A stretch of DNA of 44,793 bases, taken from positions 1 to 44,793 of the IMG/VR virus record IMGVR_UViG_3300032236_001054; one strand, written 5' to 3'. Position 1 is the stretch's first letter. Every line of letters starts with the position of its first letter. This stretch comes from a virus. The notes beneath the pieces are model-generated. The model did not search any database. It was not told the origin of the DNA and worked only from the letters and a program-made list of their open reading frames with translations. Shown here piece after piece: positions 2,866 through 44,788 of the stretch. Position numbers and translations under genes: made by a program.

Positions 2866-3059
2866 TCTTTTAATAAAATTGAATCACCAATATTAACGTA
2901 GCTTTCGGCCAATCTCTTGGCTTCGTTTACGTTAGTGGAAATGGTTTCATGCATCCAAGTACCGTTTGAAAAGAAGACAACGGTATATGTACCATCATCT
3001 TCTCTAATGACTTCGGTTCTTTTATTTCTGTGGCTATACATCATTATAATTTCGCTCAT
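2862..3059 (-). CDS. Small hypothetical phage protein (65 aa)
   Basis: Starts at ATG 3059 behind an AAGGA Shine-Dalgarno and ends in an ATGA overlap with the epimerase start. The sequence alternates short beta-type segments (TEVIREDD, TYTVVFFSNG) with a helical tail (EAKRLAESYVNIG). It is probably a small alpha/beta protein. No recognised domain. Confidence 0.7.
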   Translation of the reverse strand: MSEIIMMYSHRNKRTEVIREDDGTYTVVFFSNGTWMHETISTNVNEAKRLAESYVNIGDSILLKE

Positions 3060-16384: not shown

Positions 16385-16600
16385 TTACACCTTTGGAGGT
16401 TTTCTTGATCCCATTCCCATCATTACGGGGTTATGTGCTTTTTTCTTTTTCTTCAAGTAAACACCAGGTTCACCCGATTTACTACCAGGAGGTTGACCCA
16501 TACCTGCAACTTGGCCACCACCAGTAGTATTTGTTGGACCTGATGCAACAGCACCAGCACCCATGCCGTCTTCTTTGACGAAATCTTTAAATCGTTTCAT
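16385..16600 (-). CDS. Small basic protein with capsid-targeting-like N-terminus (71 aa)
   Basis: ATG 16600 overlaps the TAA of the upstream gene (TAATG) and is preferred over the GTG at 16612. The N-terminus MKRFKDFVKE resembles the T4 internal-protein targeting peptide (MKTYQEFIAE), with a possible V-K-E cleavage site. The rest is glycine-rich then very basic (KKKKKAHNPVMMGMG). It may be a DNA-associated internal head protein. This is inference from the N-terminus and location. Confidence 0.68.
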   Translation of the reverse strand: MKRFKDFVKEDGMGAGAVASGPTNTTGGGQVAGMGQPPGSKSGEPGVYLKKKKKAHNPVMMGMGSRKPPKV

Positions 16601-17592
16601 TAGCAGTTCCACTTTCTTAGTGCTAGTGCTTTGCGAGTTGGTTTGCCGTCCTTTTTCATAGGACCTTTCATACCACCCATTCTAGCACAGAAGGATTTAC
16701 GGCGATTTGCTGCCTTAGAACCTTTTTTCAATTTTGATGGTGGTGTTGTTACTGCCATCTTTAGTTTTGAACCTGGATTCTCTCTGCGATAAGATGCAAT
16801 ACCTTTACGGTTTAGACCACCTTTAGGGTCTTTACCTTCTTTGCGTCTCCATGCAGCAGACTCATACAATTCTTCGTCTGATACATCTTCTAGGTCTTCC
16901 CAAATAACTTCAGGATCAATGTTGTTTGCTTCTGCGATTTCCATCACAAGTTCTTCAACGATGTCAAACATTGCATCTGGATTGTGTTCTTCTTTTAGTT
17001 CACTACGCATGTAATTGGCAACAGTCATGATGTAGTCTTCTGCCAATGTAATTTTGGACTCAACCCATTCAGGTAAGTCTGTCTTGTCACCAATCAAGTC
17101 CATCATCTCTTGTGCATTGTGCATGATGGTACGTAATTGATTGATGGCCATGTATGGATCAGAGTATTCTGGATCTTTTTCTTCTTTAACCTGTTTATCT
17201 GCCAAGCCTTCCGCCACACCTTGCTTAGATTTAACGTGCCCATAACCAGTTTTATAATCTTCCGCATCTTGCTTGTCTTTGTGGATATTGTTATATGGCT
17301 TTTTTCTATGAGCATCTAATCTACCTTTTTCGTAGGGCGTTGGAATGCTACCAGAATGTTTTGTTTTGAGTGGTGCTGGATGGTCATTGAATTTTGGTGA
17401 TGCTGAATCTTTATTCAATAAGTCAGATATACTGCCTTCCGCCATATCCTCAACTTCTTCAGGTACACAATTAGGCACCTTACGACCACCCTTCATTTTC
17501 ATACCAACGGCAGTGTAACCGGTCCAGCAAGCATCTTTGAGTCCACCTGTTGGTTTTTTAACTTTTTCTCTTAGTTGTTTGAAATTTTTCAT
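16600..17592 (-). CDS. Composite head-associated protein with DUF6321-like tail (330 aa)
   Basis: Segments in order: a targeting-like N-terminus (MKNFKQLREK); LKDACWTGYTAVG...GGRKVPNCVP (about 18-43), a motif I recall from several phage and giant-virus proteins; a PYEKGRLDAHRKKPYNN block (about 85); an acidic helical middle; and from about residue 246 a basic tail (AAWRRKEGKDPKGGLNRKG ... SFCARMGGMKGPM ... RKALALRKWNC) that I recognise as DUF6321-like. Repeated A-E-G sites could be protease cleavage points. Likely packaged in or processed with the head; function unknown. Confidence 0.75.
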   Translation of the reverse strand: MKNFKQLREKVKKPTGGLKDACWTGYTAVGMKMKGGRKVPNCVPEEVEDMAEGSISDLLNKDSASPKFNDHPAPLKTKHSGSIPTPYEKGRLDAHRKKPYNNIHKDKQDAEDYKTGYGHVKSKQGVAEGLADKQVKEEKDPEYSDPYMAINQLRTIMHNAQEMMDLIGDKTDLPEWVESKITLAEDYIMTVANYMRSELKEEHNPDAMFDIVEELVMEIAEANNIDPEVIWEDLEDVSDEELYESAAWRRKEGKDPKGGLNRKGIASYRRENPGSKLKMAVTTPPSKLKKGSKAANRRKSFCARMGGMKGPMKKDGKPTRKALALRKWNC

Positions 17593-19693: not shown

Positions 19694-20789
19694 GTTTCTT
19701 TTCCTCGGAAGTGCCTAGTTTACCCATCATGGTTTCATTTCTAATCTTTTTGAAAGATTTGCGAGCCAATTCTTTTGCAACTTCCATTGGTGAAGTTTTT
19801 TCTTCAACATTCAACTTAACTTTGTAAGAAAGAGACTTGTTGTGATAGTCAGCAGGAACTTTTTCACGTCCTTTTAGAGTATCAACAGTTTTAGTCTTCA
19901 TGTTTTCACCTGGATCAATATGAACGTCATCTTCTTCGCTCATTGTGCTGATACCACCAAGGTCTTCATGTTTCATGGCTTGTTTTGTAGCAGTAGCATA
20001 CATTACATTTTTAGCACGGTCACCATAACGGTCTTTGAAACCAGCAATGCCTTTTTTCATAGACTTAACAATCTTTTCACGTTTTTCTTTTTCAGAAGCA
20101 GTCATGTGACGTTCTTCATCCAACTCAGTTTCTTTTTTGCCTTTGTGCATAGACTTTTCGTGTTTGTGCACTTCTTTGTCAGCAATTTTCTTAACTTCTG
20201 GTTTAGTTACGCAAGAATCATCTTCTTCAGTCATCTTGTGTGCAGACAAACGAGTTTCTTTATCTTCTTCTTTTTTCAAAGCAGATGGCTTAACCATTTT
20301 CTTAACAAGTGCTTTATCTTCTTTCTCGTCAGGATGGTCTTCTTCTTTCATTGATTTCTTGGTGTATACATCACCAGTAGAAGTTTTCTTGTGTTCATGA
20401 CCAGTCAATTCGCCTTTTTTCTTAGGCAATTGGCTCATGTATTTACCTTTTAGAACGTCAAAAGGATTAGAAGATTTCTTTTCATCTTCTTCTCTAACGT
20501 CAGCACTGTGACCAGATGCTGCAGCTTTGTCATCTTTTTTCTTTGAAATTTGAGCAGCAATTTTTTCTGGAGGAACCATGCCCTCAGAATGATGTTTTGC
20601 AGTTACTGGATATTTCTTACCTTGGAATTCAAAGTGAGATTGGTTTGCTCTCTTAGCGGCATGTGCAGCCTTGTGAAAACCAGTTTCATCTAATTCTGGT
20701 TCTAGAAGCATCTTTTTCTTTTCGTCTGCTTCCATGATTGCTTTTGTTGCGTCAACCAAAGATTGTGGTACTAGAGATTTAGTAAACAT
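19686..20789 (-). CDS. Lys/Glu-rich head-region protein (367 aa)
   Basis: The N-terminus (VPQSLVDATKAIMEADEKKK) has an I-M-E site followed by A, like T4 prohead protease cleavage points, and I recall similar SLVDATKxIMEA starts in other T4-like head proteins. The rest is extremely rich in Lys, Glu, Asp and His (e.g. KKMVKPSALKKEED), as expected for a scaffold or internal core component. The repeated KKEED/KEEDH blocks look like low-complexity filler. No enzymatic motif. Its first base overlaps the upstream gene's stop. Confidence 0.65.
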   Translation of the reverse strand: MFTKSLVPQSLVDATKAIMEADEKKKMLLEPELDETGFHKAAHAAKRANQSHFEFQGKKYPVTAKHHSEGMVPPEKIAAQISKKKDDKAAASGHSADVREEDEKKSSNPFDVLKGKYMSQLPKKKGELTGHEHKKTSTGDVYTKKSMKEEDHPDEKEDKALVKKMVKPSALKKEEDKETRLSAHKMTEEDDSCVTKPEVKKIADKEVHKHEKSMHKGKKETELDEERHMTASEKEKREKIVKSMKKGIAGFKDRYGDRAKNVMYATATKQAMKHEDLGGISTMSEEDDVHIDPGENMKTKTVDTLKGREKVPADYHNKSLSYKVKLNVEEKTSPMEVAKELARKSFKKIRNETMMGKLGTSEEKKHD

Positions 20790-22603
20790 TATTTTACTCC
20801 TGTTTTTTTCTTTTTAATTGTTATACCTGATTGGCCAAACTTTTCAATTGGCTTAACAAAGTCTTCTTTATTTCCAGCACCACCAAGAGTGCCACCTACG
20901 CCAGAATCTCCTTGACCGAAATCGAAGATTGATTCCTTAAACTTTTTTAACTTCTTATTCTTTTCTGCCAGTGGATTTGGGTTAACGCCTCTTGGCTTAC
21001 CTGCAAAATCAGCAACATCATCATTGCTATATTCTGTCTCCTCACGGTATGTAGAATCCCCTAAACCTGAACTAGCCGCAGCACTTTGTCCTGCTGCTCT
21101 TGAGTTTGTTGTTGGACCGATTCCACCAACGTCACCAATCTTTGCAGCGGTTAAAGAACGGTCACCAAATTTCTTTTTTCTATTTGTATCGGCATCTTTG
21201 TTGAAGTTTGCAACCTTTGGTTCTGGTGATTTAATCATCACAGGTTCTTTGTCTTCTGTATATGTGTTACCACCACCAACTTTAGGCATGTAATCACTAT
21301 TTGATTTGATATCACCATCTCTAACATCATCTCTGCGACCTAGTTTTGCGGCAAATTGCATAACAGGACTATTGTTGTCTTTCAATACGTTCAAACCTTT
21401 GTCTTTCAAATTGGTTCTTTGGATTGATTTTGCACCAATTTTAGATTCATAAATCTGTAAGAATTTGTTTGCACTTGAATAGTGAATAGAACCATTGTCT
21501 AAGAACTTTGTAGTTTCTGCAAACAAGTCAGCAATATCGCTAACCTTTTCTTCTAGGTCTCCAGTGTTATCAAAACGTGAAAAACTCTCAAACAACTCTG
21601 AAAAATGAGCAATGTTCTTTTGTGCTTCTGTCCAACGTGCATGACGAATGGATTCTACCATCATTCTCGACAATAGAGTATTTCTTTCTTGACTTACCTT
21701 GTCGGTTGTATCAACAAAAACCATCATCGTGTTGTAACCCAATTCCTCAAGTTCTTCTTTGATTTGAGAAATCTTTTCATAGTCATCAGCAGGACCATTG
21801 ATGATAAGTGGACCACGTTGACGAATTGCTTCCATCTTAGGATTCATAGAACGCATTGCCAACTTGTGCTTGTCATTCATGATATCCATAACTTGTTGGA
21901 AGTTTAATTCAACGATGTTTTGTTCTGCGATACACTCACGAATAACAACGTCTTTACCAGAACCAGGACCGCCAGTAACAAAGATGGCTTTACCTTGGCC
22001 ACGATTTGTGGATTCATGTAGACCCATGCCTCTAGTCACATCATGGAACAATTCTGTTGCATGTTCCGGATGTTTTCTGATGTTTGATGGTAGATTATCT
22101 TTGAATTTCTTGAAATCACCATTCTTGACATAGTTACGCATATCGGTACCAGAGATACCAGGTTTACGTTCACCAGTTGATTGTTGTTCGATATGGTCAA
22201 ACTTAAAGTAACCATGACGGCCTTCTACACCATTGTATTTCTTCAATAAGTGATAGTTTGCTTCTGCACCTTCACCTGATGCAACGATGGCGTGGTTGTA
22301 ACCTTTTTTGTGCATTTCTGCTGCATGGTGAAGAATACTTGGCGCTTCTTTTGTTGCAGGTACAATGTTTGCATCTGGAAAAGCACGTTTAATGTGCTTC
22401 ATTTTTGTTTTAATATCAAGTGGATTCTTCTTAGCATCATTTGCGTGTGAAGCCACAATGATGTGGTCAGCATGATTTCTTTTAGCCAAGTCTTGGATGC
22501 CTCTGACATTTTCCTCATGACCCTTAGTTGGTGGGTTCATGCGGCCAATTGCCATGACAATTGACTTGGTCTTTTCTTCTACTAACTGTCTAAAGGATTT
22601 CAT
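20789..22603 (-). CDS. Nucleotidyltransferase plus P-loop kinase fusion (604 aa)
   Basis: N-terminus MKSFRQLVEE resembles the T4 capsid-targeting peptide. Residues about 15-165 form a cytidylyl/NMN-adenylyltransferase domain: GRMNPPTKGH (20-29, the T/H-x-G-H site) and ISGTDMR (150-156). A P-loop domain follows with GGPGSGKD (211-218; Asp where Ser/Thr is usual) and VFVDTTDKVSQERN, as in small-molecule or polynucleotide kinases. The last 150 residues are Gly/Ser/Lys-rich and disordered-looking. Cyanophages carry a comparable gene called cytitidyltransferase. Possible roles are NAD synthesis or RNA-end repair; its substrate is unproven. Confidence 0.82.
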   Translation of the reverse strand: MKSFRQLVEEKTKSIVMAIGRMNPPTKGHEENVRGIQDLAKRNHADHIIVASHANDAKKNPLDIKTKMKHIKRAFPDANIVPATKEAPSILHHAAEMHKKGYNHAIVASGEGAEANYHLLKKYNGVEGRHGYFKFDHIEQQSTGERKPGISGTDMRNYVKNGDFKKFKDNLPSNIRKHPEHATELFHDVTRGMGLHESTNRGQGKAIFVTGGPGSGKDVVIRECIAEQNIVELNFQQVMDIMNDKHKLAMRSMNPKMEAIRQRGPLIINGPADDYEKISQIKEELEELGYNTMMVFVDTTDKVSQERNTLLSRMMVESIRHARWTEAQKNIAHFSELFESFSRFDNTGDLEEKVSDIADLFAETTKFLDNGSIHYSSANKFLQIYESKIGAKSIQRTNLKDKGLNVLKDNNSPVMQFAAKLGRRDDVRDGDIKSNSDYMPKVGGGNTYTEDKEPVMIKSPEPKVANFNKDADTNRKKKFGDRSLTAAKIGDVGGIGPTTNSRAAGQSAAASSGLGDSTYREETEYSNDDVADFAGKPRGVNPNPLAEKNKKLKKFKESIFDFGQGDSGVGGTLGGAGNKEDFVKPIEKFGQSGITIKKKKTGVK

Positions 22604-23778
22604 CGTGGTCTTGCCAAAAAGTTAAGTCTGTTAAATTCTTGTCTATCGTTCAGTTTAGAAACTTTGCCTTTATGTGTTGCAACGAAACCTTCTGGTTTAA
22701 CTGATGCATCACCGACAGTATGTTCTAAACCACCAGTGTGTCTTGCTAAAACGTGAACTAATGCATTTTTCGCTTGTTGTAAGTGATGATGCATCTTAAA
22801 GAAATTCTCATAATGTTGTGTATTGTTATCAATATGTTCAACGTGAGCCTTCTTTTCCGCTTCCTTTCTAGCAATTGCCGCAGGAGTTTTCACTTTAGCA
22901 ATATCTTTGTCATATTTAGCTTCGATAGATTTCTTGAGTCCAGCAACGCTTGGTTTCTCACCAGTTCTGATAGTCTGGTTAATATGTGTCTCAATAGGTC
23001 CACCAGCATTACGGTGTGGTTCTGTTGCAGCATACATTTGTTTACCGTGTAGGTCATGTAGTGCTTGTGCTGATGCCAAATGATGATGGAATTGGTCCTC
23101 ATCATGTTTGGACATCATAACTTTAGATGTATCGTGACCAGGTTCTCTGTGATAAACATCTGGATGGTCTTTGAATCCAGATAAGTCTGGATGAAAATCT
23201 GCTTTCATATCAGCCAAGGTATTGCCATGATATTGTGTATGTGTGTATACACCAAGTTTGGCTTTACGAATTTTCTTACCTTCTTCTGAATCTTTAGGTG
23301 CAGAATAGTTGATTGTGTTTGGTTTGAAGTGAACTCTACCATCATGTTCAGTCTTATCGCCATGGCCAAACATCATGTCACCTTGGTAAACACCAGTTTT
23401 TGGTGCAACTTTAGGTAAGTGATGTAGTGCGTCTTTTAGTTTAGCAACAAGACCTGGAGCATGTCCATGGTTTGCTTCGATATCTTTTTCTGTGTAATTA
23501 ACTTTTGGATTTACGTTAAATGCAGATTTGGATGCAACAAAGAATCTACCAGTCTCTGGATGATGGCCATATACAATACTTGGTGAACCATCGTGTTTCA
23601 TTGTCAAAGTAGGATCATTTTTGCCCGCTTTGATGTGTTTTCTCACTTGATTCAGTACTCCAACAGCGTGACTGAAACCTTCGGCACCGCTATGGATAGG
23701 ATGATCCTCCACATGCGTGATGTGCTTAAGCTTCGATTCGTCAGCTTCTTCTTTGAGTAGAGATTTAAAAGTTCTCAT
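22600..23778 (-). CDS. ATP-dependent ligase-like nucleotidyltransferase (DUF6267-like, 392 aa)
   Basis: Covalent nucleotidyltransferase motifs appear in order: TMKHDGSPSIVYG with K61-x-D-G (motif I), GVYQGDMMF (129-137, motif III), KLGVYTHTQY (about 192, motif IIIa), EGFVATHKG (363, motif IV) and KVSKL (372, motif V). This is the order found in DNA and RNA ligases. The N-terminus MRTFKSLLKEE again looks like a capsid-targeting peptide. The protein is very His-rich. It overlaps the kinase fusion gene by 4 nt, so a joint kinase-ligase repair role is plausible. I recall related phage proteins as DUF6267. Confidence 0.72.
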   Translation of the reverse strand: MRTFKSLLKEEADESKLKHITHVEDHPIHSGAEGFSHAVGVLNQVRKHIKAGKNDPTLTMKHDGSPSIVYGHHPETGRFFVASKSAFNVNPKVNYTEKDIEANHGHAPGLVAKLKDALHHLPKVAPKTGVYQGDMMFGHGDKTEHDGRVHFKPNTINYSAPKDSEEGKKIRKAKLGVYTHTQYHGNTLADMKADFHPDLSGFKDHPDVYHREPGHDTSKVMMSKHDEDQFHHHLASAQALHDLHGKQMYAATEPHRNAGGPIETHINQTIRTGEKPSVAGLKKSIEAKYDKDIAKVKTPAAIARKEAEKKAHVEHIDNNTQHYENFFKMHHHLQQAKNALVHVLARHTGGLEHTVGDASVKPEGFVATHKGKVSKLNDRQEFNRLNFLARPR

Positions 23779-23814
23779 TTTTACCTTTAGACTTGCAATA
23801 CACTATGATTGCCA

Positions 23815-23834
23815 TAAAGTTATTTATATAACTT
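23815..23834. repeat. AT-rich inverted repeat around the late promoter
   Basis: AAAGTTAT, four bases, ATAACTTT: a perfect 8-bp inverted repeat enclosing the TATAAATA box. It could be a weak terminator for the glycosyltransferase operon upstream or a regulatory site. The remaining gap (23835-23888) shows nothing further. Confidence 0.45.
23821..23828 (-). promoter_or_regulatory. T4-type late promoter box TATAAATA
   Basis: Exact TATAAATA on the minus strand, 42 nt upstream of the ATG at 23778, at the head of the block 23778-16385. It lies within an inverted repeat (AAAGTTAT-N4-ATAACTTT, 23815-23834). Confidence 0.7.
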
Positions 23835-29595: not shown

Positions 29596-29603
29596 TATTT
29601 ATC
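29596..29603 (-). promoter_or_regulatory. T4-type late promoter box (GATAAATA)
   Basis: Minus-strand GATAAATA, one mismatch to TATAAATA, 19 nt upstream of the ATG at 29576. It overlaps the stop codon of the DruA-like gene. Confidence 0.5.
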
Positions 29604-30705
29604 TAATGATTTGAATCTCTTTGCCAGAGGTCCAAACCTCCAATTCAGTTCTCAAACGACCTTCACTTTTCAATGTGTCGTATCGGTTTGAAGCCTTGTT
29701 TTTCCACCATTGTATGATGTTTTCTAGTTCATACTTATCATAGTTCTCCTTGTCTTTAATCAAAGTATCAGTCTTACAACAAATGTAGTCCACAAAGTTG
29801 CTATATCCATAGTTAGAAATGTAATAACGTTTCTGTTCTGTCAACTTCTTAGCGTTCTCAATCGTTTTAAGAAAAGCATCACCCTCAATTGTACCTTTTA
29901 ATGAGGCCTTTGTCAAGGCAATGATTCGTTGTGAAATCTTCAATTTCTTACTTGAAGCGGTTTCTTCAACCAGAGGACCAACTCTCTCTTGAACAAAGTC
30001 ACGTAGGTCTGAGTACGGTTTGCCATGCATCATAGGCAAAAAATCAGATTCTGTCAATCCTTTATAGCGAATAAAAGGCTTCATACCATCATACTGTGAG
30101 ACTTGTTTAGTTGAACCATACAAACTTGTTGTTTCAAAGAGACACAAATTCATTCCATACTTCTTGTTGACAATTTCACGGACTGTATGTGAAGTGCAAA
30201 TTGCAGCCAACAGTTTACCACCAAGATAGTTGAAACCAAATGGTTGACTTGGAACAATCACAAAACCCATCATAGCAGAATCATTGAATCTTTTACCCCA
30301 CTCAGGTTTTTGTGTAAACACTTGACCCAACATTTCATTTCTAGGTTTGCAGTTGATAACAGGTGAACCCAAACGAATGAATCCTAGAAACTGTTGTGTC
30401 TTTCTTTCTCTTACAGCCAAATGAACACTACGTCCAACAGGACGAATGTTGATATGTGATGATGTGATTGATAGTAGTGTTTCCCATGTCTCATTAGGAA
30501 TCTCACACACTTCAATGTCCATATCATTTGGATGCATGGTGAAATCGGAGAACAAATCATCTTCAGGAGGAAACAAAGATGTTGGTATTTCTTCCAATGA
30601 GTTTAACTTTTGGTCACGCATGTATTCATCAATACGTTCAAAGTTACCAAAGTAATCTTCAAACGCTTTTGCACAATGAATAGCATCCTCTTTAGTCAAC
30701 ATCAT
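29599..30705 (-). CDS. DruA-like (DUF4338) protein (368 aa)
   Basis: The middle of the protein (about 85-215) has HLAVRERKTQQFLGFIRLGSP, NDSAMMGFVIVPSQPF, the GGKLLAAICTSHTVREIVNKKYGMNLCLFETTSLYGST block and a K-x-F-I-R-Y-K-G end. Its pattern of G-F-I/G-x-L strand, LLA helix, YG-x-x-x-x-L-x-E-T-T and S-x-Y-x-A/G-S-x resembles DUF4338, the DruA component of the bacterial Druantia defence system. It lacks the other Druantia genes. In a phage it may be a nucleic-acid modifying or counter-defence protein. It overlaps the helicase stop by 4 nt. Confidence 0.65.
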   Translation of the reverse strand: MMLTKEDAIHCAKAFEDYFGNFERIDEYMRDQKLNSLEEIPTSLFPPEDDLFSDFTMHPNDMDIEVCEIPNETWETLLSITSSHINIRPVGRSVHLAVRERKTQQFLGFIRLGSPVINCKPRNEMLGQVFTQKPEWGKRFNDSAMMGFVIVPSQPFGFNYLGGKLLAAICTSHTVREIVNKKYGMNLCLFETTSLYGSTKQVSQYDGMKPFIRYKGLTESDFLPMMHGKPYSDLRDFVQERVGPLVEETASSKKLKISQRIIALTKASLKGTIEGDAFLKTIENAKKLTEQKRYYISNYGYSNFVDYICCKTDTLIKDKENYDKYELENIIQWWKNKASNRYDTLKSEGRLRTELEVWTSGKEIQIIR

Positions 30706-41992: not shown

Positions 41993-42066
41993 TGGAGCGG
42001 GATAGCGGAATCGAACCGCTGACTAAAACTTGGAAGGATCTCGTTTTACCATTAAACTAATCCCGC
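41993..42066 (-). tRNA. tRNA-Gly(TCC)
   Basis: Acceptor GCGGGAT/ATCCCGC, D-arm GTTT..AAAC, anticodon loop CTTCCAA (TCC), T-arm GCGG-TTCGATT-CCGC, discriminator T and an encoded CCA. One U-U mismatch in the anticodon stem. Confidence 0.9.
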
Positions 42067-42074
42067 TTATAAAT

Positions 42075-42148
42075 TGGTTGCGAGACCAGGAATCGAACCT
42101 GGACCTGGAGCGTATGAGACTCCTGAGTTACCGTTTCTCTATCTCGCT
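42075..42148 (-). tRNA. tRNA with CAT anticodon (Met or Ile2)
   Basis: Anticodon arm GGAGT-CTCATAC-GCTCC, T-arm CCAGG-TTCGATT-CCTGG, encoded CCA. The first acceptor pair is A-A, an unpaired end that is a feature of initiator tRNAs, but the three G-C pairs of an initiator anticodon stem are missing. Met, fMet and Ile2 cannot be told apart here. Confidence 0.88.
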
Positions 42149-42159
42149 ATGTATATAGG

Positions 42160-42236
42160 TGGTGCGGCTGGTGGGACTCGAACCCACAAAACTCGGATTT
42201 TAAGTCCGATACGTATACCAATTCCATCACAACCGC
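42160..42236 (-). tRNA. tRNA-Leu(TAA) lacking a long variable arm
   Basis: Acceptor GCGGTTG/CAGCCGC, Leu-type D-loop (GGAATTGGTA), anticodon loop CTTAAAA (TAA), T-arm GTGGG-TTCGAGT-CCCAC, CCA encoded. The variable region is only GTTTT, whereas bacterial Leu tRNAs carry a long extra arm. Confidence 0.88.
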
Positions 42237-42257
42237 ATAATTAAGTGTATTCTTTAT

Positions 42258-42335
42258 TGGTACCCCTGCTCAGATTCGAACCGAGAGAACTCTTCCTTTT
42301 GAGAGAAGTGACTTTACCAATTTGTCCACAGGGGC
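42258..42335 (-). tRNA. tRNA-Leu(CAA) lacking a long variable arm
   Basis: Acceptor GCCCCTG/CAGGGGT, D-arm GAC..GTC with AAATTGGTAAA loop, anticodon loop CTCAAAA (CAA), variable AGTTCT, T-arm CTCGG-TTCGAAT-CTGAG, CCA encoded. Second Leu tRNA in the cluster with a shortened variable region. Confidence 0.87.
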
Positions 42336-42342
42336 AAAATCT

Positions 42343-42418
42343 TGGTGCAACCCACAGGAATCGAACCTGTTTCCATGGTTCTTCAGACCACCGCTATGAC
42401 CACATCAGCTAGAGTTGC
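42343..42418 (-). tRNA. tRNA-Phe(GAA)
   Basis: Acceptor GCAACTC/GGGTTGC, anticodon arm GTGGT-CTGAAGA-ACCAT (GAA), T-arm ACAGG-TTCGATT-CCTGT, discriminator A and CCA encoded. Confidence 0.92.
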
Positions 42419-42420
42419 AT

Positions 42421-42495
42421 TGGTGCTCCCACCAGGAAACGAGCCTGGTTCTCATCCTTACCAAGGATGTGTAATCGCCATTATACTATGGGAGC
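42421..42495 (-). tRNA. tRNA-Thr(GGT)
   Basis: Acceptor GCTCCCA/TGGGAGC, anticodon arm CATCC-TTGGTAA-GGATG (GGT), T-arm ACCAGG..CCTGGT with a TCGTTT-like loop, CCA encoded. Confidence 0.88.
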
Positions 42496-42498
42496 AAG

Positions 42499-42534
42499 TG
42501 ACACACAATTTGTCCTTTTGTACGCCGTGTGTCA
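42499..42534 (-). other. Hairpin between tRNA-Thr and tRNA-Val
   Basis: TGACACAC (42499-42506) and GTGTGTCA (42527-42534) form a perfect 8-bp inverted repeat around a 20-nt loop in the only sizeable spacer of the proximal tRNA cluster. Possible RNA-processing or termination structure. Confidence 0.5.
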
Positions 42535-42543
42535 AGGCGAATT

Positions 42544-42619
42544 TGGTACCTTGTGACGGGTTCGAACCGCCGACATCCTCCTTGTAAGGGAGGCACTCTA
42601 CCAACTGAGTTAACAAGGC
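42544..42619 (-). tRNA. tRNA-Val(TAC)
   Basis: Acceptor GCCTTGT/ACAAGGT, D-arm with AGTTGGTA loop, anticodon arm CCTCC-CTTACAA-GGAGG (TAC), T-arm with GGTTCGAACCC, CCA encoded. Confidence 0.92.
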
Positions 42620-42626
42620 ATATATG

Positions 42627-42699
42627 GGCAGGCGTAAGAGAATTGAACTCTTGATATCGGAATCACAATCCGAGGTTTTACCACTAAACTAACACCTGC
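42627..42699 (-). tRNA. tRNA-His(GTG)
   Basis: Acceptor GCAGGTG/CGCCTGC with discriminator C73, as for His tRNAs, anticodon arm TCGGA-TTGTGAT-TCCGA (GTG), T-arm AAGAG-TTCAATT-CTCTT. The CCA is not fully encoded. Confidence 0.9.
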
Positions 42700-42705
42700 A
42701 TAAAA

Positions 42706-42779
42706 TGGAGCGGGATACCAGAATCGAACTGGTAACTAAACCTTGGCAAGGTTTCGTTTTACCACTAAACTAATCCCGC
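42706..42779 (-). tRNA. tRNA-Gly(GCC)
   Basis: Same acceptor and D-arm as tRNA-Gly(TCC), anticodon arm AAACC-TTGCCAA-GGTTT (GCC), T-arm ACCAG-TTCGATT-CTGGT, CCA encoded. Its first 15 nt overlap the 3' end of the DUF458-like gene. Confidence 0.92.
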
Positions 42780-43265
42780 ACTTTCTAAAACTTCTTGTTC
42801 TGCCAGAATACGCTTCAAACGGTCTGCACAGAATGATGCTGCTGGTGCATCTGGTTTTACCATTGGTGTCATGTTGCAAGTGCCTTTTATATATCCAATT
42901 GCCTGTTGGACAACGCAAGAAGAACCATAAATGTCTTCTTTGTTCAAGTCTAAGTGAACTTCAACATGATGGTCTTCCAGAACGTCCTGGAGACTTTGGA
43001 ACAATTCTGAAACCTTATATACTTCTGTCATCAGACGCATAGCAGGTTTGCTTTTCTTGTGGTCATAATCCAGTTCACGTTCAACGTAACCAAAGATTTT
43101 GCATCCGTGACGGCCATCAATATGAACTACGACAGCCAAAGCATAATCTGCATACCAAACACCATCAACACGAACTCTTTCTGAATCTGCACCAAGATAA
43201 ACTTTAGTATCTGGTCCTTGTGCTGACAAGAATTCTTTAACTTTTTCTATGTCGAAATTTTTCAT
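42765..43265 (-). CDS. RNase H-fold protein, DUF458/YkuK-like (166 aa)
   Basis: The frame is open from 43331, but ATG 43265 follows AAGGATTG and avoids the upstream tRNA-Trp gene. The sequence has KVYLGADSERVRV (Asp first strand), YALAVVVHIDGRHGCKIFGY, EVHLDLNKED and a C-terminal APAASFCADR. This matches the RNase H-like DUF458 family (YkuK), probably binding or cleaving RNA. It sits between tRNA genes, and its last 15 nt, including the TAG stop, lie in tRNA-Gly(GCC). Confidence 0.82.
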   Translation of the reverse strand: MKNFDIEKVKEFLSAQGPDTKVYLGADSERVRVDGVWYADYALAVVVHIDGRHGCKIFGYVERELDYDHKKSKPAMRLMTEVYKVSELFQSLQDVLEDHHVEVHLDLNKEDIYGSSCVVQQAIGYIKGTCNMTPMVKPDAPAASFCADRLKRILAEQEVLESAGLV

Positions 43266-43279
43266 ATCAATCCTTAAAT

Positions 43280-43353
43280 TGGCATCCCAGGAAGGACTCG
43301 AACCCTCACCAACGGTTTTGGAGACCGGCATGCTGCCATTACACTACTGAGAT
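43280..43353 (-). tRNA. tRNA-Trp(CCA)
   Basis: Acceptor ATCTCAG/CTGGGAT, anticodon loop CTCCAAA (CCA), T-arm GAGGG-TTCGAGT-CCTTC, discriminator G typical of Trp, CCA encoded. Confidence 0.88.
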
Positions 43354-43354
43354 A

Positions 43355-43549
43355 TTATTTCTTTACTAATGGATTCTCCACATCATCATAGTGGAGTCCC
43401 AACTCATCCGAAATTCGAGCCAACTCATCAAGAGCCTTCTCTTGTTTCGATTTCTTATCCTTACCAAATATTGCATCCCAATTACTAGCGAACTTGTCTT
43501 GAGATACACTATATGGTCTAGGACTTGAACCTTTACCACCATCACTCAT
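43355..43549 (-). CDS. Conserved small phage protein (64 aa)
   Basis: ATG 43549 follows AGGAG and is preferred over the frame extending into tRNA-Arg. The N-terminus (MSDGGKGSSPRPYSVSQDKF) with NWDAIFGKDKK is a pattern I recall from many unrelated phages. The C-terminus is a charged helix (EKALDELARISDELGL). Function unknown. It ends 1 nt before tRNA-Trp, so the RNA must be cut between them. Confidence 0.78.
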   Translation of the reverse strand: MSDGGKGSSPRPYSVSQDKFASNWDAIFGKDKKSKQEKALDELARISDELGLHYDDVENPLVKK

Positions 43550-43567
43550 ATTTAATACTCCTAAAAT

Positions 43568-43645
43568 TGGTGCGCCCCGAGGAATTCGAATCCCCAACCT
43601 CACGGGTTCGTAGCCCGGTGCTCTATCCAGTTGAACTAGAGGCGC
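43568..43645 (-). tRNA. tRNA-Arg(ACG)
   Basis: Acceptor GCGCCTC/GGGGCGC, anticodon loop CTACGAA (ACG), D-loop AACTGGATA, T-arm with TTCGAAT, CCA encoded. Confidence 0.9.
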
Positions 43646-43651
43646 ATAAAA

Positions 43652-43745
43652 CCATATAGAAACACACTACGAGCGGGCGGTCGATATCGGATTCCGTTAC
43701 TCACGAATCCAAGTCACTTACCCACAAGAATGTGTTTTTATATGG
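43652..43745 (-). ncRNA. tRNA-like element 1 flanked by CCATATA inverted repeat
   Basis: On the minus strand a 74-nt core (43735-43662) opens with ACACATT and closes with AGTGTGT, a 7-bp acceptor-like stem, extended outward by CCATATA/TATATGG. Inside are a CTT-GTGGGT-AAG D-arm-like hairpin, a GGATTC..GAATCC stem and a weaker third arm. No GGTTCGA T-loop is seen, so it is not a canonical tRNA. Confidence 0.4.
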
Positions 43746-43823
43746 AATCCATTGTGTGTAGGGCATCGAAACCTACATTAAGCCCCATAATGGGCCTTTA
43801 TTACCACTTATAAGAACACGGAT
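43743..43823 (-). ncRNA. Divergent tRNA-like sequence ending in CCA
   Basis: Minus strand ATCCGTG..AATGGAT-T-CCA gives a 6-of-7 acceptor stem and an encoded CCA. A CTT..AAG D-arm with GTGGTAA, a GCCC-ATTATG-GGGC arm (TAT as possible anticodon) and TGTAGG..CCTACA around TTCGAT follow. The arms are the wrong size for a standard tRNA. Confidence 0.4.
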
Positions 43824-43874
43824 TCTTGGGGTCATGACTCCCCAATATGGACAGGGTAATTACTCCTGTTTTTA

Positions 43875-43937
43875 CCATATAGAAACACACTATGCCACGC
43901 TCTGAACCTGGACTCTTAGTAATGTGTTTTTATATGG
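43875..43937 (-). ncRNA. Mini tRNA-like element 2 (43-nt core)
   Basis: Same ACACATT/AGTGTGT acceptor-like stem and CCATATA flanks as elements 1 and 3, but the core (43927-43885) holds only one hairpin, CCAGG-TTCAGAG-CGTGG, like an acceptor plus T-arm minihelix. It may be a decayed copy. Confidence 0.35.
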
Positions 43938-44055
43938 CGTATCAACAATGCCGTATGCATCCGTCATTGCGTCTGTAATTAGTATCCGAGATTCCGAGCC
44001 TCGATATCTATCCCGTAGGTAGCAGTCCCGTGTATGACTTACTAAAAACTGATAT
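43935..44055 (-). ncRNA. Structured sequence ending in CCA between elements 2 and 3
   Basis: Minus strand begins ATATCAG and ends TTGATAC-G-CCA, giving an acceptor-like stem with an A-C first pair. It contains a TATCGAG..CTCGGATA hairpin and a near-palindrome (AATGACGGATGCATACGGCATT without two pairs). At about 120 nt it is too long for an ordinary tRNA. Confidence 0.3.
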
Positions 44056-44056
44056 A

Positions 44057-44153
44057 CCATATAGAAACACACTATGGGATTCGAACCCTTCGTTCAGCAT
44101 CAGAACTTCAAACCTACCCACCTGCTAGCAGGAGTTAATGTGTTTTTATATGG
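44057..44153 (-). ncRNA. tRNA-like element 3 with canonical T-arm
   Basis: 77-nt core (44143-44067) with the shared ACACATT/AGTGTGT stem. It carries GGG-TTCGAAT-CCC, a perfect T-arm core, a GTTC-TGATGCT-GAAC anticodon-like arm whose position 33 is G rather than T, and a CCTG-CTAG-CAGG hairpin. This is the most tRNA-like of the three repeats. Confidence 0.45.
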
Positions 44154-44225
44154 TGGTGATAGAAGGTAACGATCCTTCCTTTGAGGCTTATGAGACCCCC
44201 GCATATCCGTCTATGCTATATCACC
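44151..44225 (-). tRNA. Second tRNA with CAT anticodon
   Basis: Acceptor GGTGATA/TATCACC, D-arm GCAT..ATGC with an AGACGGAT loop, anticodon arm GGGGT-CTCATAA-GCCTC (CAT), T-arm GAAGG-ATCGTTA-CCTTC with an unusual loop, CCA encoded. Met or Ile2. Confidence 0.8.
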
Positions 44226-44233
44226 GAAATGAA

Positions 44234-44428
44234 TTTGTAAGTCGTAGCGTCCCTCATATCGCTACCATTTTCCCTTGTCATAAAGCCGGCAGGGTCAAGA
44301 TCCGTCATTACAGTTACTCATCCAACGCTTCTATCTTTGTGCTAGGGTATTGCGCCCCTCGTTGTTTACCTACTCTTTGGCTGGCCGGCTACTCGAATCG
44401 GTGACTTTCACTTACTGACACTTACAAA
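44234..44428 (-). ncRNA. Candidate structured RNA closed by a 9-bp stem
   Basis: Between 44226 and 44431 no tRNA or CDS is supported. TTTGTAAGT (44234-44242) and ACTTACAAA (44420-44428) are perfect complements. Inside are AGCCGGC/GCCGGCT (long-range), GTAGCG..CGCTAC (hairpin) and AGGG..CCCT. T4 carries two stable RNAs of unknown function (C and D) within its tRNA cluster, which is a reasonable precedent. Confidence 0.4.
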
Positions 44429-44431
44429 ACT

Positions 44432-44509
44432 TGGCGTCCACCGTCGGTATCACACCGCACTCCAAGTCAGCTGGTAAGTGCTGACCTACGAATCTCTCGT
44501 TGAGTGGAC
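44432..44509 (-). ncRNA. Divergent tRNA-like cloverleaf with CCA
   Basis: Acceptor GTCCACT/GGTGGAC with discriminator G and encoded CCA, D-arm ACGA-GAGAT-TCGT, middle arm GTCAGC-ACTTACCA-GCTGAC (8-nt loop) and a short T-arm CGG-TGTGATA-CCG. All four helices are there, but GG in the D-loop and TTC in the T-loop are missing. Amino acid unclear; TAC is in the loop. Confidence 0.5.
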
Positions 44510-44512
44510 TGA

Positions 44513-44558
44513 CTTATATTTCCATCGTTGCCACCACAGCATTGACTACTCATATAAG
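44513..44558 (-). ncRNA. Short structured element with 7-bp closing stem
   Basis: CTTATAT (44513-44519) and ATATAAG (44552-44558) are perfect complements closing a 46-nt unit, with a 32-nt interior. It is similar in size to the 49-nt unit to its right. Confidence 0.3.
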
Positions 44559-44570
44559 CACTAACTTGTA

Positions 44571-44619
44571 GTAGACGCTACCGGGCATTTAGTGCCCGTA
44601 TCACAATTAGTTGGTCTAC
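44571..44619 (-). ncRNA. 49-nt three-way-junction-like element
   Basis: Minus strand GTAGAC..GTCTAC closes a unit with two hairpins, CAA-CTAA-TTG and CGGGCA-CTAAA-TGCCCG. It looks like a reduced tRNA with one arm missing. The second loop contains CTA, but not in the normal anticodon position. Confidence 0.35.
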
Positions 44620-44625
44620 AAAACT

Positions 44626-44704
44626 TGGCTCCGTGTGAGGGAATCGAACCCACCTAGTCATTGATTAACAGTCAAGTCCTTGCACCTTGCTTGGATTTCA
44701 CGGA
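44626..44704 (-). tRNA. tRNA-Asn(GTT), copy 1
   Basis: Acceptor TCCGTGA/ACACGGA with a final A-A mismatch, anticodon arm TTGA-CTGTTAA-TCAA (GTT), T-loop TTCGATT, discriminator G, CCA encoded. T-stem has one mismatch, so it is somewhat degenerate. Confidence 0.82.
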
Positions 44705-44712
44705 ATAAAACT

Positions 44713-44788
44713 TGGCTCCTCGACCTGGGCTCGAACCAGGGACAAACGGATTAACAGTCCGGCACTCTACCAACTGAGCTATCGAGGA
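44713..44788 (-). tRNA. tRNA-Asn(GTT), copy 2
   Basis: Acceptor TCCTCGA/TCGAGGA, D-arm GCTC..GAGT with AGTTGGTA loop, anticodon arm CGGA-CTGTTAA-TCCG (GTT), T-arm CCTGG-TTCGAGC-CCAGG, CCA encoded. A clean tRNA. Confidence 0.93.

Follow-up and report, generated by a model that had tools for sequence, protein, structure and literature searches.

The ipII, ipIII and Alt proteins of phage T4 are internal head proteins, either small and basic or an ADP-ribosyltransferase, which combine a 10-residue N-terminal tag with key positions 4, 7, 8 and 10, a late-promoter sequence and a gp21-type protease. The first 10 residues of this capsid-targeting sequence (CTS) are enough for head targeting, residues 4 and 7 serving targeting and residues 8 and 10 processing, and a D at position 10 keeps targeting and blocks cleavage (PMC9026906). 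Cyanophage virions are also already known to hold nucleotidyltransferases (NTases), whose packaging the authors concerned had suspected, and a role of these enzymes in NAD supply is a published idea. Here, we analyze IMG/VR virus record IMGVR_UViG_3300032236_001054, positions 1 to 44,793 (the “window”), a 44.8-kb fragment of a T4-like phage that carries uvsX, gp41, gp61, nrd genes and DNA polymerase and belongs to a freshwater, Kyanoviridae-type relative of T4. Two adjacent genes of the window, encoding a DUF6267 protein and an NTase-kinase, probably specify late-expressed, tagged head cargo, with RNA end repair as the likeliest but still tentative role. The features on which this reading is built are the following (pLDDT, predicted local distance difference test; NMNAT, nicotinamide mononucleotide adenylyltransferase; PPAT, phosphopantetheine adenylyltransferase):

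22600..23778, minus strand: DUF6267 protein, 392 aa, a predicted RNA-ligase-fold enzyme with a capsid-targeting-like tag (Pfam PF19782, E 2.3e-93; AlphaFold2 pLDDT 92.3; ligase fold matches)
23749..23778, minus strand: DUF6267 tag MRTFKSLLKE, with a gp21-type cut expected after E10 (motif; residues 1-11 at pLDDT <50)
20789..22603, minus strand: tagged 604-aa HIGH-type nucleotidyltransferase fused to a P-loop kinase (phrog_3041, E 2.5e-41; phrog_395 cytidyltransferase; Zeta_toxin, 26.4 bits; structure model)
22574..22603, minus strand: tag of the 604-aa protein, MKSFRQLVEE (motif)
22010..22570, minus strand: predicted nucleotidyltransferase domain, residues 12-198, with GRMNPPTKGH and ISGTDMR (NMNAT and PPAT structures, Z ~13)
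21494..22009, minus strand: predicted P-loop kinase domain, residues 199-370, with GGPGSGKD (C. thermocellum polynucleotide kinase, Z 13.4, tied with others)

Both genes lie between gp41 and gp61 and, as the initial annotation had it, they are adjacent and overlap, by 4 nt (22600-22603). Comparable blocks adjoin gp41 in Pelagibacter phage HTVC008M, P-HM2, S-SM1 and Methylophilales phage Melnitz, as well as in S-SCSM1 and S-SZBM1, and the two genes are close together in phage C48C1. DUF6267 relatives occur in 464 phage records; PHROG family 455 matches DUF6267 as well as the NTase, which suggests that the two are fused in some phages. The ratio of nonsynonymous to synonymous substitution rates (dN/dS) against near relatives is 0.02-0.05 for DUF6267 and 0.08-0.11 for the 604-aa gene, and both genes are under strong purifying selection.

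The N-termini read MKSFRQLVEEK in the 604-aa protein and MRTFKSLLKEE in the 392-aa protein, and both keep the key positions of the T4 CTS, with hydrophobic residues at 4, 7 and 8 and E at 10. The likeness to T4 had been pointed out before, together with (L/I/V)-x-E sites of the kind cut by the T4 prohead protease, and these sites are indeed found at residues 8-10 (VEE and LKE). We fixed the tag motif as M..[FYLIM]..[FYLIW][LIVMKF].E; it was drafted with N-termini of S-CREM2 and S-SCSM1 in view, so that the tests on these two phages are not blind, and the scans of T4, S-SM1 and the whole window were made after it was fixed. In 72 kb of T4 (161 ORFs of at least 60 aa), the motif retrieves ipII, ipIII, Alt and gp24 only, the latter being a head protein cleaved by gp21 according to the T4 record; ipI and the core proteins gp22, gp67 and gp68 escape it in the same scan. 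Of the 42 coding sequences (CDS) of the window, 3 carry it, namely DUF6267, the 604-aa gene and an ORF at 16385-16600, against 0.07 expected from shuffled N-termini, and three matches were reached in 0 of 20,000 shuffles, which bears out the likeness noticed by eye. Only three ORFs match in the 174-kb relative G001, two of which, DUF6267 and a DUF6321 protein, are preceded by a stretch resembling a ribosome-binding site. Counted over all freshwater loci, gene strands hold 311 copies of the motif and opposite strands a single one, although these loci overlap and the counts are not independent.

The first ten residues are otherwise variable in these freshwater relatives (MLSFKTFLTE, MKSFLNFLKE, MRSFLTFLKE, MKNIKHFLKE), the key positions staying in place, and a linker of variable length follows the tag; in the AlphaFold2 model of DUF6267, tag residues 1-11 are disordered. 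In S-SM1-type phages the tag is on the NTase only (80/80 homologues) and not on DUF6267, while C48C1 has it on DUF6267, on the NTase and on two small neighbors. Since it is present, absent or on one gene only, clade by clade, the tag behaves as an add-on module. A gp21 protease gene is found in 4 of 6 relatives, at 57-58% identity, and the 44.8-kb window fragment does not carry one.

The tag agrees with published virion proteomes. Tagged NTase homologues have been detected in the virions of S-SM1 (T4-GC190, tag MKKFSAFLNE), S-SCSM1 (ORF91, MKSFLQFLKE) and S-CREM2 (ORF154), as well as in S-SZBM1 (S-SZBM1_140) with a shift of one residue. These cytidylyltransferase- or NMNAT-annotated proteins share a related NTase domain and the same tag with the window protein; unlike it, they have no kinase domain, and the DUF6267 homologue of these phages is untagged. 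The published S-CREM2 virion list covers 52 of 219 CDS, and the motif is found in 6 of the 219 against 0.36 expected; all five tagged CDS of at least 75 aa (a SAM lyase, a kinase, a cytidylyltransferase and two proteins of unknown function) are in the list (Fisher p 0.004, or 0.0004 once annotated structural proteins are left out). The untagged DUF6267 proteins of S-CREM2 (ORF87), S-SCSM1 (ORF257) and S-SZBM1 (141) are absent from these lists, non-detection being weak evidence. S-SZBM1, taken as a prospective test, gave a mixed outcome: its untagged DUF6267 is missing from the virion list as predicted, and in its NTase, detected by mass spectrometry (MS), the core motif starts a residue too soon (MRFRQFIIEA) for the strict motif, which therefore missed it. 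As tagged NTases are in virions and untagged DUF6267 proteins are not listed, the tagged DUF6267 of the window is predicted to be packaged.

The region upstream of DUF6267 points in the same direction:

23821..23828, minus strand: TATAAATA, a late promoter sequence of T4 type located 43-50 nt upstream of the DUF6267 start codon
23794..23813, minus strand: conserved 5' leader hairpin with a 5-bp stem and an 8-nt loop CA[A/T]AGTGT, between promoter and ATG (covariation)
23784..23788, minus strand: probable ribosome-binding site AAAGG (read directly)

Of 53 distinct relatives, 43 have ATAAATA in the 150 nt that precede the DUF6267 start, where shuffling predicts 4.1; its distance from the ATG is mostly 40-65 nt. 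The total ATAAATA count in the window is below chance, and it is therefore the position of the sequence that argues for a late promoter; sigma-70-like promoters were not found above chance. This conserved position supports late expression of DUF6267, which fits head cargo, unlike an early counter-defence enzyme made from incoming DNA. The leader hairpin has 35 distinct versions in 95 loci, with compensatory changes in all 5 pairs and an invariant loop. Its commonest form has DUF6267 directly downstream in 76 of 80 database loci, and one other hairpin locus (L393) combines a late promoter with a different tagged protein. In thermodynamic folding the leader does not surpass shuffled sequences, and it is covariation that supports the hairpin; there was no Rfam match at gathering thresholds. 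Translational control of the cargo transcript would be our guess for its role.

What the pair would do in the cell is read from predicted folds and motifs. The structure prediction that had been proposed as a check gives, for DUF6267, a model of high confidence (predicted template modeling score 0.88), and VIA-align returns RNA or DNA ligases in all 50 Protein Data Bank (PDB) rows listed. The best match among these is the Naegleria RNA ligase (Z 9.1, root-mean-square deviation 3.7, 184 residues aligned), with further Z scores of 8.0 for TbREL1, 7.9 for T4 Rnl2, 7.8 for Trl1 and 7.2 for T4 Rnl1; Foldseek matches of the model are weak (best E 0.02). The motifs K61-x-D63-G64, Q132-G133-D134, P362-E363-G364 and K375 show little or no variation in 64 relatives reaching down to 31% identity. 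The full set of ligase motifs claimed earlier is thus there as far as KxDG, III, IV and V and their order are concerned, and not as regards motif III, which reads QGD instead of QGE. DUF6267 therefore shares predicted adenylyltransferase fold and motif order (KxDG, QGD, EG, K) with the RNA ligases of Naegleria gruberi, T. brucei (REL1), T4 (RNA ligases 2 and 1) and fungi (Trl1); it differs from them by this D for E, by the lack of a significant profile match and by about 120 inserted helical residues (224-344) that follow motif III and precede motif IV, altering the spacing. PDB sequence searches with single proteins and with profiles gave no reliable relatives. Because sequence profiles give no link to T4 ligases, the ligase reading draws on fold and motif order, which point to an ATP-dependent polynucleotide (RNA) ligase as the most likely identity of DUF6267.

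The 604-aa protein was modeled over residues 1-400 (pLDDT 79.7). Its N-terminal domain has HxGH-type and ISxTxxR-type motifs on a HIGH nucleotidyltransferase fold, and residues 12-198 match PPAT and NMNAT structures equally well. The GSDR motif of relatives is replaced by GEGA (residues 110-113) in the NTase clade of the window; from the sequence, this loss may mean an altered substrate or a lost nucleotidyltransferase activity. We rejected an assignment as NMNAT or NadR, all models of which score far below their curated cut-offs, and kept the protein as a HIGH-type nucleotidyltransferase. Over residues 201-370 the kinase domain resembles, besides the polynucleotide kinase listed above, guanylate kinase (Z 12.9), PSTK (12.7) and Kti12 (12.7), and it matches Zeta_toxin (Pfam PF06414) above the gathering score (cut-off 22.3), which does not imply toxicity. 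Like the kinase domain of C. thermocellum Pnkp and the zeta-toxin family kinases it has a P-loop kinase fold, and it differs in a Walker A that ends in D. The earlier description of a GRxNPPTxGH nucleotidyltransferase fused to a P-loop kinase consequently stands for both motifs, GRMNPPTKGH and GGPGSGKD, and is supported by the folds, with the reservation that the last Walker A residue is not S/T. HTVC008M encodes the kinase as a gene of its own, which matches Zeta_toxin and PSTK more strongly. An hhalign comparison with T4 PseT aligned only the 25-column P-loop. From the model, the P-loop domain most likely phosphorylates nucleic-acid or nucleotide ends.

We propose that the 10-residue tag would direct each protein into the prohead core, where the prohead protease would cut it off after E10, and that both enzymes would leave with the phage DNA at infection and enter the bacterium; within minutes of entry they would repair RNA ends, for example on tRNAs that a host defence has cut. 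Carriage in the head, raised as a condition in the initial annotation, is for the window phage something we infer from the T4 calibration, the virion proteomes of related phages, the co-conservation of the tag and the late promoter; taken alone, packaging of the pair is likely. The RNA-repair role on its own is the least certain step and stays tentative. PADLOC assigned no defence family to the pair, and a weak Cas13a match (E 0.0056) was set aside.

Several points weigh against this proposal. The marine P-HM2 clade has no tag on either gene, both proteins beginning at the enzyme domain, and the NTase tag is weak in many freshwater relatives (K7, or D/S at 10). All that is known of the window phage is a metagenomic record of 44.8 kb, in which head genes are absent, and the virion evidence comes from homologues in other phages. 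Two small strict-motif ORFs of S-SZBM1 (105 and 165 aa) are not in the MS list and one small strict-motif protein of S-SCSM1 is not in the virion report, MS being incomplete; the S-SCSM1 scan covered 189 of 282 CDS. As for the enzymes, hhalign of DUF6267 against T4 Rnl1, Rnl2 and DNA ligase found nothing, a weak test (single T4 sequences; Neff 3), and the kinase fold is as close to nucleotide kinases as to polynucleotide kinases. One also has to keep in mind that the S-CREM2 authors could not exclude co-purified contaminants in their list, CsCl-purified virions being able to hold abundant host-stage proteins. With a motif that is degenerate in part of the family, one could argue that it is an ordinary short amphipathic helix, that the proteins are cytoplasmic during infection and that virion detections of homologues are contamination. 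We consider this quite improbable: the listed S-CREM2 proteins share one address tag, which makes contamination less likely, the motif is specific in T4 as well as in S-CREM2, tagged members of one gene block are in virion lists and untagged ones are not, and the late promoter and a disordered, separable tag speak for head cargo.

If packaging is accepted, the proteins might still be head core or scaffold components with old enzyme folds whose catalysis is no longer important, as the S-SCSM1 block is rich in virion proteins (ORFs 89-93, 95, 97) and the NTase of the window lacks GSDR. However, the residues of the DUF6267 catalytic motifs hardly vary, if at all, down to the most distant of the 64 sequences, and the kinase P-loop is kept, with dN/dS of 0.026-0.09, which makes this explanation highly improbable. 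Another proposal accepts the head cargo and takes the 604-aa protein as a NadR-like NAD salvage enzyme acting against an NAD drain by host defence, in which the kinase would convert nicotinamide riboside to nicotinamide mononucleotide and the nucleotidyltransferase would turn this into NAD, DUF6267 being a separate matter. The order of NTase and then P-loop kinase is indeed that of NadR (PMC9503650), NMNATs are among the fold matches, ISGTDMR resembles the second NMNAT motif, relatives give weak matches to the NadR/NMNAT models TIGR01526 (E 0.00094) and TIGR00482 (E 0.00013), marine homologues are annotated NMNAT, and an NAD role has been proposed in print for them (PMC9602691, PMC10665884). 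Against this, besides the low model scores, PPAT structures match no worse than NMNATs, hhalign against E. coli NadR aligns the HxGH stretch only, the marine homologues have no kinase domain and GSDR is lost in the window's own clade; we hold NAD salvage to be unlikely.

Within the literature searched, these virion enzymes had not been connected with the T4 CTS rule, nor DUF6267 described as tagged in some phages only, and the tagged ORF at 16385-16600 is likewise new, as is the late promoter followed by a hairpin leader; DUF6267 is not named in that literature, and its assignment as a ligase is new to that extent. Tagged head cargo would provide a sequence rule for the enzymes packaged by T4-like phages of marine and fresh waters, and would account for the recurrence of cytidylyltransferases, a SAM lyase and a kinase in virion proteomes. 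DUF6267, a family without assigned function, becomes a testable candidate for an RNA ligase delivered at infection.

The remaining tagged or near-tagged features of the window are as follows:

16385..16600, minus strand: third tagged ORF, 71 aa, basic, MKRFKDFVKEDG / MKRFKDFVKEDGMGAG (motif; conserved in L093, L089 and L090)
16600..17592, minus strand: DUF6321-domain protein with the near-tag MKNFKQLREK (profile match; homologues tagged or reported in virions)

The third tagged ORF had escaped the initial annotation. The DUF6321 homologue of G001 carries the tag, and those of S-CREM2 (ORF137) and S-SCSM1 (ORF29) are listed virion proteins. In some relatives, a tagged or near-tagged protein of HAD (haloacid dehalogenase) type, with DxDDT, is inserted between DUF6267 and the NTase (L029:8153-8788, L039:8274-8891, L112:5150-5785, L118:4188-4799), an arrangement in keeping with a kinase-phosphatase-ligase kit; the L029 copy matches phrog_415, named polynucleotide kinase (E 3.5e-10). 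Other tagged neighbors of DUF6267 show D...ExK-like patterns (L011:4903-5943, L029:7167-8153, L120:4173-5144) and, judged by eye, may be nucleases; their profile search gave no match. Several effectors without relation to each other may thus make up the cassette, and the two enzymes need not share a substrate. A wider scheme seems to us rather unlikely: Kyanoviridae-type phages would use the portable tag, the late promoter and the dedicated RNA leader hairpin for a cassette of exchangeable cargo, made up of ligase, NTase-kinase, HAD phosphatase and nuclease-like proteins, and would thereby pre-load the head with a complete RNA end-repair kit that acts before phage gene expression.

A few observations concern tags in other phages. 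S-SCSM1 (L099:44215-44535) and S-SZBM1 (L349:42312-42629) share a small tagged family, MKxFKxFxSESVNISGDFNGNLY, found in neither virion list. In S-CREM2, the Cas9-annotated virion protein ORF12 (L104:7704-10313) shows the tag pattern LRFASFMAEA at about residue 17, and its start codon may have been annotated too early. The C48C1 cytidyltransferase, as annotated, starts too late, without the tag and with a truncated GRxNP motif (L345:3001-3064); an in-frame ATG at 3001 yields MKNFSQYLLEEE. Elsewhere in the window, the protein encoded at 29599-30705 resembles the DruA (DUF4338) defence family weakly (E 6e-6) and phrog_19197, a family of unknown function, strongly, and an array of 13 tRNA genes occupies 41993-44788, at one end of the fragment.

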